A stretch of 64,000 nucleotides of DNA from positions 1 to 64,000 of the forward strand of contig NZ_CAKLBV010000021.1 in the NCBI RefSeq assembly GCF_920984675.1. The letters run 5' to 3'. The stretch is from Methylobacterium sp. Leaf118 (GTDB lineage Bacteria; Pseudomonadota; Alphaproteobacteria; Rhizobiales; Beijerinckiaceae). Position numbers and translations under genes: made by a program. The notes under the pieces were generated by a model. The model was not told the DNA's origin, ran no database searches, and saw only the letters and a program-made list of their open reading frames with translations. Positions 57,642-61,578 of the stretch are shown piece by piece. Every line of letters begins with the position of its first letter. The stretch's first letter is position 1.

Positions 57642-58280
57642 ATGATCGAGACCAAGGGTTCACACAATCGTCACGGCGCCGCCCGTGACGACGAAGCCCG
57701 CCGCCGCGACGGCCGCGCCGATCGGGAAGCAAAGCCCGAGCCGCCGGTGAGCGCCGCCTGGCTGGAGCGGGTGGCCCTGCATTACCTCGACCGCTACGGC
57801 GCCTCGGGCGAGATGCTGCGCCGGGTGCTGGCCCGCCGGGTCGAGCGGCGCTGCCGCTCCCGCGACGAGGCGTCCGAGGCCCATGCCGGACTGATCGACG
57901 AGACCGTGGAGCGCGCCCGGCGCGCCGGCCTCATCGACGACGCGCGCTTTGCCGCCGCGCGGCTTGCCCGGCTGCGGCGGCGGGGCACCTCGACCCGGCA
58001 GGCCCGGGCCCAGCTCTCCGGCAAGGGACTCGACGCCGAGACGATCGCGGCGGCGATCTCGGACGAACGCGCGGAGGCGGAGGAGGCCTCGCCCGGGGAG
58101 GCCGACACCGAGCGCCAGGCCGCCCTCGCCTATGCCCGCCGCCGCCGGCTCGGCCCCCACCGCCGCCCCGACCTCCGCGAGGCCCATCACGAGCGCGACC
58201 TCGCCGCCATGGCCCGGGCGGGCTTCCCCTACGCGCTGGCCCGGGACGTGATCGGGGGCGACGGCGAGGACGAGGCGTAG
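57642..58280 (+). CDS. recX: Regulatory protein RecX
   Basis: 212 residues. It modulates RecA filaments and recombinase activity. The helical triplet repeats are seen in ALHYLDRYGASGEMLRRVLARRV, GLIDETVERARRAGLIDDARFAAARLARLRRRGTSTRQARAQL and the C-terminal AAMARAGFPYALARDVIGG. The N-terminal 35 residues are polar and not conserved, so a later start (GTG near 57747) is possible. recA is not adjacent. Confidence 0.9.
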   Translation: MIETKGSHNRHGAARDDEARRRDGRADREAKPEPPVSAAWLERVALHYLDRYGASGEMLRRVLARRVERRCRSRDEASEAHAGLIDETVERARRAGLIDDARFAAARLARLRRRGTSTRQARAQLSGKGLDAETIAAAISDERAEAEEASPGEADTERQAALAYARRRRLGPHRRPDLREAHHERDLAAMARAGFPYALARDVIGGDGEDEA

Positions 58281-58378
58281 GCGGCTCCCTCTCGACTTCC
58301 GGACGCTTCGCCCCACGTGGCCCCCGATGCGGGAGCCCCCCGCGACGGATCTCGACGCCAGGTTTAAGGACGACGCGC

Positions 58379-58810
58379 ATGACCGACCGCCACGCGAGCG
58401 CCCATTGGGAGGGTGACGGCAAGACCGGCAAGGGCACGATCACGACCCAGTCGGGCGTGCTCTCCGCCAATCCCTACGGTTTCAACACCCGCTTCGAGAA
58501 CGAGCCGGGCACCAATCCGGAGGAGCTGATCGCCGCGGCCCATGCCAGCTGCTTCACCATGGCGCTGGCCTTCCAGCTCCAGGGCGCGGGCCTCAAGGCG
58601 ACCTCCCTGGACACCAAGGCCGTGGTCACGCTCGCGAAGGACGGCGACGGCTTCAAGGTGACGAAGTCGGCTCTGACCCTGAAGGCGGTGATCCCCGGGA
58701 TCGATCAGGCGAAGTTCGACGAACTCGCCGGCAACGCCGAGAAGGGCTGCCCGATCTCGAAGGTGCTCAACGCCGAGATCACCCTCGACAAGACGCTCAG
58801 CCAGGGCTGA
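58379..58810 (+). CDS. OsmC-family peroxide-detoxifying protein
   Basis: 143 residues. Thiol-dependent peroxidase fold. The redox cysteines are Cys58 in AAHASCFTMALAFQL and Cys124 in EKGCPISKVL, the standard spacing. N-terminal AHWEGDGKTGKGTITTQSGVL matches the OsmC branch rather than Ohr. It probably reduces organic hydroperoxides using lipoyl or other thiol donors. A stem-loop with a short T tail follows the gene. Confidence 0.93.
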   Translation: MTDRHASAHWEGDGKTGKGTITTQSGVLSANPYGFNTRFENEPGTNPEELIAAAHASCFTMALAFQLQGAGLKATSLDTKAVVTLAKDGDGFKVTKSALTLKAVIPGIDQAKFDELAGNAEKGCPISKVLNAEITLDKTLSQG

Positions 58811-58861: not shown

Positions 58862-58921
58862 CCGGTGCGAAAGGCAACGCGCCGCATTGATCCCGACGCG
58901 CCCGCGTTCATCTTCCGTTCG

Positions 58922-60133
58922 ATGGACGAGACGCTCGCGCGCAAGCTGCGCATCCTCGCGGATGCGGCCAAATACGATGCCTCCTGCGCCTCTTCGGGGG
59001 CGCCGAAGCGCAAGGCCGGCGCCGACGGGCTCGGATCGACGACGGGGGCGGGGATCTGCCACGCCTACACGCCGGACGGGCGCTGCGTCTCGCTGCTCAA
59101 GATCCTCTTGACGAATTACTGCCTGTTCGATTGCGCCTATTGCGTCAATCGGCGCTCCTCGAACGTGGCCCGGGCCCGCTTCTCCGTCGAGGAGGTGGTG
59201 ACGCTCACGGTCGAGTTCTACAAGCGCAACTACATCGAGGGCCTGTTCCTCTCGTCGGGCATCATCCGCTCGCCGGACTACACGATGGAGATGCTCACCC
59301 GCGTCGCCAAGAAGCTTCGGCGCGAGCACGGTTTTCGCGGCTACATCCATCTCAAGTCGATCCCCGAGGCGAGCCCCTGGCTGATCGAGGAGGCCGGCCT
59401 CTACGCCGACCGCCTGTCGGTCAACCTCGAGCTTCCCACGGAGGCGAGCCTCAACCGCCTCGCCCCCGAAAAGGACGGGGCGGCGATCGAGGGGGCGATG
59501 GGGCAGATCGGCGAGCGCATCGTCCAGGCGAGAGAAGAGAAGCGCCGCTTCTCGCCCGCCGGCCAATCGACCCAGGTGATCGTGGGGGCCGACGCGACCA
59601 CCGACGAGGCGCTGATCCGCAAGAGCGCCTTCCTCTACGGCAGCTACGGGCTCAAGCGCGTCTATTACTCGGCCTTCAGCCCGATCCCCGACGCCTCGTC
59701 GGCCCTGCCGCCGAAGGCCCCGCCCCTGCGCCGCGAGCACCGGCTCTATCAGGCCGACTGGCTGATCCGGTACTACGAGTTCTCCCCCGACGATGTGGCC
59801 GGCGCCTCCGAGGGCGGGATGCTCTCCCTCGACATCGACCCCAAGCTCGCCTGGGCCCTCAAGAACCGCCACTGTTTCCCCGTCGACGTGAACCGGGCCG
59901 ACCGGGAGATGCTGCTGCGGGTGCCGGGGCTCGGGGCGCGGGCGGTCGATGCCATCGTCAAGGCGCGCCGCCACGGCCGTCTCCGCCTCGACGACGTGGC
60001 CCGGCTGACCTCGGGACTGAAGCGCGCGCGCCCCTTCCTGATCGCCGAGGATTTCCGGCCGACGACGCTGACCGACCGGCTGGACTTGCGGGCGACGCTG
60101 GCGGAGCCGGCCGAGCAGTTGAGCCTGTTCTGA
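58922..60133 (+). CDS. Putative DNA repair/modification radical SAM protein (UdgX-linked family)
   Basis: 403 residues. The iron-sulfur cysteines Cys67, Cys71 and Cys74 are in NYCLFDCAYC, the CxxxCxxC radical-SAM signature. DAAKYDASCASSG at the N terminus is characteristic of the family always found next to a UdgX-type uracil-DNA glycosylase. A helix-hairpin-helix (LLRVPGLGARAVDAIVKARR, about 328-347) suggests DNA binding. The ATG at 58922 is preferred over a GTG 19 codons earlier. Its stop overlaps the next ATG (TGATG). Probably acts on damaged or modified DNA; the reaction is unknown. Confidence 0.93.
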   Translation: MDETLARKLRILADAAKYDASCASSGAPKRKAGADGLGSTTGAGICHAYTPDGRCVSLLKILLTNYCLFDCAYCVNRRSSNVARARFSVEEVVTLTVEFYKRNYIEGLFLSSGIIRSPDYTMEMLTRVAKKLRREHGFRGYIHLKSIPEASPWLIEEAGLYADRLSVNLELPTEASLNRLAPEKDGAAIEGAMGQIGERIVQAREEKRRFSPAGQSTQVIVGADATTDEALIRKSAFLYGSYGLKRVYYSAFSPIPDASSALPPKAPPLRREHRLYQADWLIRYYEFSPDDVAGASEGGMLSLDIDPKLAWALKNRHCFPVDVNRADREMLLRVPGLGARAVDAIVKARRHGRLRLDDVARLTSGLKRARPFLIAEDFRPTTLTDRLDLRATLAEPAEQLSLF

Positions 60134-61578
60134 TGGGGGCGGGCACGCGAACCGCGTCCCCCGCGGCGGCGGGCGGGAAAGGCGGCATCCACGTCGCCGC
60201 CCTCGGCCCCGGGGCGGACCTGGCCGGCTTCCGCACGGCCGCCCGGCGCCTGATTGCGGCCGGAATCCCGCCCGAGGCCATCGTCTGGCAGAGCGAGACG
60301 CCGAGCCTGTTCGGCGCCGACACCGCCCCCGCCGAGGCTCCGCCGCTCGCGTTGCCCCGCGCGGTGACCGACCTCATCCCGATGGTGGTGCCCCACCGCG
60401 ATCCCGAGCGCTACGGCCTGCTCTACGCCCTGCTGTGGCGGGTCGTGCGGGGCGAGCGGGCGCTGATGGAGGTGGCGAGCGATCCGCTGGTTCACCGCCT
60501 CCACCGGATGCGCAAGGCGATCGCCCGCGACCTGCACAAGATGCACGCTTTCCTGCGCTTCCGCCGCCTGCCGGGCGAGACGGAGCGCTACGCCGCGTGG
60601 TTCGAGCCGGACCACCACATCCTGGAGGCCGCCGCGCCGTTCTTCGTCGACCGGTTCCGCAACCTCGCATGGTCGATCCTGACCCCGGAGGGCTGCGCCC
60701 ATTGGAACGGCGCGCTGACCTTCGGCCCGCCGGGTCGCCGCGAGGACCTGCCGGAGGGGGACGGCTTCGAGGCGGGCTGGCGCGACTATTACGAGAGCAC
60801 CTTCAACCCGGCCCGGCTGAATCTCGACGCCATGCGTGCCGAGATGCCTCGGAAATACTGGCGCAACATGCCCGAGACGGCGGCGATTCCGGGCCTGATC
60901 CGGGCCGCCGGAGCCCGGGCCCAGGCGATGATCGAGCGGGGGCCGACAATCCCGGAGAAGCGCGACCCCGTCCGAGCCGTCGCCCGGATGGCGCGGGACG
61001 AGCCGGATTCGCTTGTGGCGCTGAACGCGATCATCGCCCGCTCCGAGCCGCTGGTGCCCGGCGCGACCCAGGCCGTACTGGGCGAAGGACCGATGGGGCC
61101 GGCGATCGCCTTCGTCGGCGAGCAGCCGGGCGATCAGGAAGACCGGCAGGGCCGCCCGTTCGTCGGGCCGGCGGGACAGCTCCTGGCGCGGGCGATGGCG
61201 GAGGCGGGGCTCGACCGCTCCGAAGCCTACCTCACGAATGCGGTCAAGCACTTCAAGTTCAGCCTGCGCGGCAAGCGGCGCATCCACGAGAAGCCGACGG
61301 CGGGCGAGGTGAGCCATTACCGTTGGTGGCTGGAGCGCGAACTCGGCTTCGTGGCCCCTCGACTCGTCGTGGCCCTCGGCGCCACCGCGGTGCTGGCGCT
61401 GACCGGCAAGCCGGTCCCGATCACCCGCGCCCGCGGCCCGGCCGATTTCGGCCGGGCGTTCGCGGGCTTCATCACGGTCCACCCCTCCTACCTGCTGCGC
61501 CTGCCCGAGGCGGCGAAGGCGGACGCTTACCGGGCCTTCGTCGACGACCTCCGGCGGGTCGCCGCACTGGTCGCCTGA
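60133..61578 (+). CDS. UdgX-family uracil-DNA binding protein fused to a DUF4130 domain
   Basis: 481 residues. The N-terminal half contains a DUF4130-type domain (about 60-235: HRLHRMRKAIARDLHKMHAFLRF, WFEPDHHILEAAAPFF, TPEGCAHWNGALTFGP). The C-terminal half (about 290-480) is a family-4-like uracil-DNA glycosylase fold with VGEQPGDQEDRQGRPFVGPAG, the UdgX loop KRRIHEKP and HPSYLLR. In UdgX the loop histidine forms a covalent bond with the uracil site. Unusually, the glycosylase half has no cysteine at all; the usual iron-sulfur ligands are replaced (for example ARSEPLVPGATQ and EVSHYRWWL). It starts at 60133, coupled to the radical SAM gene. Confidence 0.92.
   Translation: MGAGTRTASPAAAGGKGGIHVAALGPGADLAGFRTAARRLIAAGIPPEAIVWQSETPSLFGADTAPAEAPPLALPRAVTDLIPMVVPHRDPERYGLLYALLWRVVRGERALMEVASDPLVHRLHRMRKAIARDLHKMHAFLRFRRLPGETERYAAWFEPDHHILEAAAPFFVDRFRNLAWSILTPEGCAHWNGALTFGPPGRREDLPEGDGFEAGWRDYYESTFNPARLNLDAMRAEMPRKYWRNMPETAAIPGLIRAAGARAQAMIERGPTIPEKRDPVRAVARMARDEPDSLVALNAIIARSEPLVPGATQAVLGEGPMGPAIAFVGEQPGDQEDRQGRPFVGPAGQLLARAMAEAGLDRSEAYLTNAVKHFKFSLRGKRRIHEKPTAGEVSHYRWWLERELGFVAPRLVVALGATAVLALTGKPVPITRARGPADFGRAFAGFITVHPSYLLRLPEAAKADAYRAFVDDLRRVAALVA

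Follow-up and report, generated by a model that had tools for sequence, protein, structure and literature searches.

The stretch of DNA analysed here (64,000 nucleotides, referred to as the window) includes a gene in which a DUF4130 half is fused to a uracil-DNA glycosylase (UDG) half resembling UdgX, and the question it raises is whether a UdgX domain devoid of cysteine is a cluster-free member of a family whose Mycobacterium smegmatis representative is reported, in the available part of PMC10359453, with a 4Fe-4S cluster. The fusion gene lies within a longer open frame and its ATG shares one base with the stop codon of a radical SAM gene (Table 1). The UdgX half scored 282.8 bits against TIGR03914, over the cut-off of 189.95, and 100.8 bits against the family-4 UDG profile TIGR00758, under the cut-off of 125.3. 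The DUF4130 half matched TIGR03915 at 192.8 bits (cut-off 112.25) and PF13566 at 132 bits (cut-off 27). The nearest named relatives are from Methylobacterium (L196–L200). Two genes lie just upstream of the cassette on the same strand (57642–58807), one RecX-like, with a score barely above the Pfam cut-off, and the other OsmC.

Table 1. Features of the radical SAM/DUF4130-UdgX cassette, in window coordinates
Feature	Coordinates	Strand	Remarks
Radical SAM gene (TIGR03916, rSAM_link_UDG), CX3CX2C motif	58865..60133	+	TIGR03916 549 bits
DUF4130-UdgX fusion gene, 481 aa, ATG start	60133..61578	+	Within longer open frame
DUF4130 / TIGR03915 half, aa 29-249	60217..60879	+	Profile match; model pLDDT 91.4
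UdgX (TIGR03914) domain, aa 252-476, 0 Cys	60886..61560	+	Profile; model pLDDT 94.8
CxxC place of Cys-bearing UdgX, here A302-R-S-E305	61036..61047	+	
Motif A GEQPG, aa 329-333 (GEQPGDQED 329-337)	61117..61131	+	
H373 in VKHFKF, presumed fourth cluster ligand, retained	61249..61251	+	
R-loop KRRIH, aa 381-385	61273..61287	+	H385 aligns with cross-linking H109 of M. smegmatis UdgX
Y396 at third cluster Cys place	61318..61320	+	Cys in M. smegmatis UdgX alignment
Motif B HPSYLLR, aa 450-456	61480..61500	+	

The initial annotation had described a glycosylase half that contains no Cys and keeps GEQPGDQED, KRRIH and HPSYLLR, and the translation bears this out, the sole Cys of the 481-residue protein being C188 in the DUF4130 half. 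If Cys frequency is assumed to be about 1%, a 230-residue stretch would be Cys-free by chance about once in 10, so the absence alone is weak evidence and the strong point is its position. In Cys-bearing relatives a CxxC is followed by VKHFK and then by another Cys; the Cys-to-GEG spacing is constant in 146 of 146 such sequences that have GEG, and the His of VKHF is unchanged in all 167 that are gap-free there. Gap-free anchoring on the following GEG puts A302, E305 and Y396 at the three Cys places, while a MAFFT alternative puts S304 on the first of them; the GEG-anchored reading needs no gap. The earlier listing of the cluster positions as Ser, Pro, Tyr and similar is corrected by the GEG anchor to A302, E305 and Y396. 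H373 occupies the position of the third Cys of family 4. From the alignment we presume the cluster ligands of M. smegmatis UdgX to be three Cys and this His, a set from which the window protein has the His and lacks the three Cys. Judged by its signature and profile matches, the protein is best classed as a UdgX variant outside the cluster-bearing UdgX group.

The UdgX signature is R107 and H109, with Q53, in the available part of PMC10359453. The equivalent R383 and H385 were found in 103 of 103 Cys-less sequences and Q331 in 102 of the 103, E330, N369 and K372 were found in all 103, and H450 and R456 in all 102 that are gap-free there. Motif B is printed as HPS(S/A)(L/V)(L/V)R and has Tyr in fourth place in the window; Tyr is also the commonest residue at that place among the members that have the Cys (104 of 168). 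Purifying selection acts on the gene, with dN/dS against 11 chosen relatives of 0.13–0.27 for the UDG half, 0.15–0.50 for the DUF4130 half and 0.07–0.34 for the radical SAM gene. The solved folds nearest to an AlphaFold2 model of the UdgX half are those of UdgX, the best match being 6ajo_A from M. smegmatis (Z 29.1, rmsd 1.6, 196 residues aligned). AlphaFold2 builds its models without cofactors and is frequently confident on cluster proteins as well, which makes the model weak evidence for cluster-free stability. A UDG-like stretch in the phage phiLo family-A DNA polymerase chain (PDB 9qhs_A) also matched the UdgX-half model, at Z 16.8.

The reading that we favour, with a probability of roughly 0.78, is that the window protein is a UdgX-family domain without its 4Fe-4S cluster that would be folded and would still excise uracil and cross-link to DNA. 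The fold would form without iron, and ordinary side chains, usually Glu, His and Tyr in the main Cys-less clade, would occupy the cluster pocket. Excision of uracil would be followed by self-trapping on the abasic sugar via H385, as we infer from the published UdgX mechanism of uracil excision and a covalent His bond to the abasic sugar (PMC10359453, available part). The UdgX half would act as one member of a cassette that also includes DUF4130 and the radical SAM enzyme, and the cluster of the UdgX family would be a removable structural module, not part of catalysis. Retention of the catalytic residues suggests catalysis and is no proof of it.

The spread of the Cys-less state was followed through 275 loci, which include 100 of 101 places chosen from order and phylum matches (G675:C5 was omitted). 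Two loci (L175 and L189) were not scorable, and the 273 scored loci comprise 168 with the three presumed cluster Cys, 103 with none and 2 with two. As 'Cys-bearing' denotes all three Cys by definition, 168 of 168 is not itself a finding. The two-Cys loci are a family-4 UDG (L002) and a truncated UdgX fragment (L134), and among the 273 scored loci no intact UdgX intermediate between three Cys and none was seen. L134 and L135 are broken fragments, the latter counted in the 168, and a contig-edge piece (L188) is counted in the 103. Some named loci duplicate unnamed ones (L205/L112, L197/L194, L236/L132, L265/L076 and L262/L144), so that the figures given here number loci and not genomes independent of one another.

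The fusion is present in 97 of 99 genomes of the genus, that of the window included, and in one of these it is split across two contigs; the remaining two have a weaker family-4-like match only. All 51 genus sequences read (the window included) from the 97 genomes with the gene lack the three Cys, and this agreement excludes sequencing error as the cause. TIGR03914 scored above its cut-off in 89 of the 297 genomes searched from the order and in 78 of the 398 from the phylum. The 90 loci read from the order matches, including two of the genus, comprise 68 with three Cys, 21 with none and one fragment, and a further 54 from the phylum list divide into 51 with three Cys, 2 with none and one not scorable. 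The Cys are present in each of the 16 loci that were read from the phylum's other classes (L153, L154, L156, L160, L161, L163 and L165–L174). The Cys-less form was found in named records of Methylobacterium, Microvirga, Azospirillum, Ancylobacter, Acidocella and Pleomorphomonas, and in MAGs labelled Bosea, Enterovirga and Hyphomicrobium. It was found at separate places in the tree in Belnapia, Roseomonas nepalensis, Pararoseomonas and an Acetobacteraceae MAG, and in Parasphingorhabdus flavimaris. Both states occur in genus g81 (probably Bosea), with L110, L112 and L118 lacking the Cys and L053 and L127 having them, and this genus evidently lives with either form; Bosea sp. CRIB-10 (L232) retains the Cys, in contrast to the Cys-less MAG labelled Bosea. 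One Cys-less locus, L126 (G229:C2), has a TGA inside the UDG domain that ends the frame before motif B, reflecting either decay or an assembly error.

A tree built from all alignment columns placed 34 Cys-less rows from ten families (f1, f2, f11, f14, f16, f20, f29, f36, f45 and f50) on a single branch with an SH-aLRT of 100 and L162 separately, both nested among Cys-bearing rows when family 4 was the outgroup. A more careful tree, with the ligand columns removed and named loci added, had 115 rows, of which 52 were Cys-less (8 from the genus) and 63 were Cys-bearing rows selected by hand from the 168; L126 and L188 were omitted. The main Cys-less group was one clade of 46 rows with support of 100/100, and the loss of Cys does mark a clade, as the initial annotation had asked. 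That this subfamily never has Cys at these positions, a possibility raised there, is true of the genus and of the main clade so far as they were sampled; in the wider family, however, 168 loci have three Cys, and the Cys-less clade sits nested within this Cys-bearing set. That the change was a loss rather than a gain is suggested by this nesting and by the Cys present in M. smegmatis UdgX (at the third place) and in the family-4 sequences L290–L295.

The number of losses is where the first alternative arises, namely that the Cys were lost once and recombination carried the UDG half of the main clade into the scattered cases. The UDG domain taken alone is compatible with this, as the AU test did not reject a single Cys-less clade (p 0.182, lnL 37 lower) and the well-supported branches of the careful tree force just two changes of state. 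However, four changes are needed on the best UDG tree and over the 5–95% range of bootstrap trees, and the minor groups carry different residues at the CxxC place. A tree of the partners (radical SAM and DUF4130) was made from the 76 of the 115 loci with long enough matches, 42 of them Cys-less (L268 dropped out). It recovered a main Cys-less clade of 37 rows (SH-aLRT 100), its supported branches force four changes, and it rejects a single Cys-less clade, for which lnL is lower by 185 (p about 1e-88, from a quick tree), pointing to three further losses beyond the main clade. A single origin is therefore rather unlikely. The Cys state changed at least twice and most likely four times, a number that swapping of UDG halves between cassettes could lower.

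Loss of the whole Fe-S ligand set from an otherwise intact UdgX is real, marks a clade and is probably recurrent. The proposal that this is a cluster-free variant stands at the level of sequence, in a stronger form than originally claimed, because the loss marks a clade, is all-or-none as scored and is probably recurrent. A broader version, that the UdgX cluster is a removable module and that alphaproteobacteria became cluster-free yet competent about four times, with the three Cys lost together each time and Tyr at the third place in three of the four groups, is tentative and, to us, has slightly less than an even chance of being right.

A second alternative is that the UdgX half is inactive and has been retained in the fusion for DNA binding or as a scaffold, the loss of Cys being decay. 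UdgX activity might indeed be dispensable, since the same genome encodes a family-1 Ung (TIGR00628, 186.1 bits, cut-off 185.75) and a family-4 UDG (TIGR00758, 209.1 bits, cut-off 125.3), and the relative L126 is shortened by the stop inside its UDG domain. Against it are the catalytic residues and the His and Arg of the R-loop, kept in 103 of 103 Cys-less sequences, the low dN/dS of the UDG half (0.13–0.27) and the presence of the gene in nearly every genome of the genus (97/99). Together they make an inactive domain quite unlikely. The idea that glycosylases of this genome have lost their clusters in general was also rejected, as the C-x6-C-x2-C-x5-C loop is intact in MutY, Nth and a third HhH glycosylase.

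Two of the four cluster Cys are missing from the genome's own family-4 UDG and from all 14 of the order relatives that were read. Across the family-4 UDGs of the order (L002, at G000:C62, and L276–L289) two of the four Cys are kept in 15 of 15 read, with CxxC changed to [FY]xGC and KCRPP to [PFY]WRPP, while those from other classes (L290–L295) have four Cys in 6 of 6. Six of the 21 family-4 sequences were scanned and all six pass TIGR00758, with scores of 200–214. The family-4 UDGs of the order are possibly another case of cluster loss in the same superfamily, and their two remaining Cys suggest that partial loss can occur in a near family, which argues against a strict all-or-none rule.

The third alternative concerns the present make-up of the emptied site. 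Across the Cys-less sequences Tyr takes the third Cys place in 94 of 103, His373 is kept in 95 of 103, and the second Cys place is Glu in 73 of the 101 with a GEG anchor. Recurrence of these residues at former ligand places is what would be expected if another metal, a single iron or zinc bound by Glu, His and Tyr, had replaced the cluster. The set is not constant, however: one lineage has Gln in place of both His and Tyr, L162 has Arg and Thr, L248 has Arg where His would stand, and several have Pro or Gly instead of Glu. We regard a replacement metal as very unlikely. On the favoured cluster-free reading, Glu, His and Tyr could instead pack or hydrogen-bond in the emptied pocket. His373 varies in 8 of 103 Cys-less and 0 of 167 Cys-bearing sequences (Fisher p 0.0004, for rows that are not independent); its change only where the Cys are gone fits a role for this His as the fourth ligand. 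The His of VKHF is Gln in L130–L133, L217 and L236, which represent Pleomorphomonas (L132/L236) and relatives and Ancylobacter defluvii, and no DUF4130 or radical SAM match was found in the flanking stretch read at these loci.

DUF4130 and the radical SAM gene are both present at 117 of the 168 Cys-bearing loci and at 91 of the 103 Cys-less loci, with contig ends or short flanks truncating some of them. The pairing with a radical SAM enzyme noted at the outset is real, as judged by the TIGR03916 match (549 bits), but does not mark the Cys-less form; a radical SAM neighbour is ordinary for the UdgX family, and a tie between Cys loss and this partner was rejected, as it stands beside both forms. 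In a 2013 figure legend DUF4130 is a predicted mutagenesis-related enzyme associated with SplB-like radical SAM photolyases and UDGs (PMC3765255, available part). The DUF4130 model found no match in the PDB at E ≤ 0.001, the best having an E of 0.017. That a cluster is still held through ligands from DUF4130 or a partner protein is extremely improbable, for although the fusion has one Cys (C188) and the radical SAM gene adjoins it, the C188 position is Ser in a 53-row consensus, and DUF4130 and radical SAM are both missing from the stretch read at 11 of the 103 Cys-less loci (one of the 11, L188, being the contig-edge piece, in whose genome a second contig has another query match).

There is debate over whether Fe-S clusters in DNA glycosylases are structural or sense damage through redox chemistry (review PMC9266487, available part). 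If the broader version is true, the Cys-less forms would be a natural knock-out series, and cluster redox chemistry and DNA charge transport would not be needed for the job of UdgX. Natural cluster-free members that keep every catalytic residue, alongside cluster-bearing relatives in genus g81 (probably Bosea), would allow the role of the cluster to be tested without engineered mutants. UdgX is mentioned in papers on C-to-G base editors and uracil mapping, in the parts available, and a form needing no Fe-S assembly would, if active, be useful for both. No Cys-less UdgX was found in the titles and abstracts of the literature searched.

The three-part association of DUF4130, SplB-like radical SAM and UDG was already named in 2013, in the available text of PMC3765255, where the passage on it does not mention Cys loss. 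Family-4 UDGs (TIGR00758) share with the window domain the fold and a distant sequence similarity, and differ in that the window domain falls under the TIGR00758 cut-off and has the KRRIH loop, whereas L290–L295 have four Cys. M. smegmatis UdgX (PDB 6ajo, 6iod) shares the fold (Z 29.1), GEQPG, KRRIH, HPS.LLR and VKHFKF, with 44% identity in the structural alignment, and the window domain departs from it in lacking the three Cys and in being fused to DUF4130. The Cys-bearing TIGR03914 fusions, for example that of Bosea sp. CRIB-10 (L232), have the same DUF4130 fusion, radical SAM neighbour and catalytic motifs as the window protein, and differ from it in keeping the CxxC, the His and the Cys.
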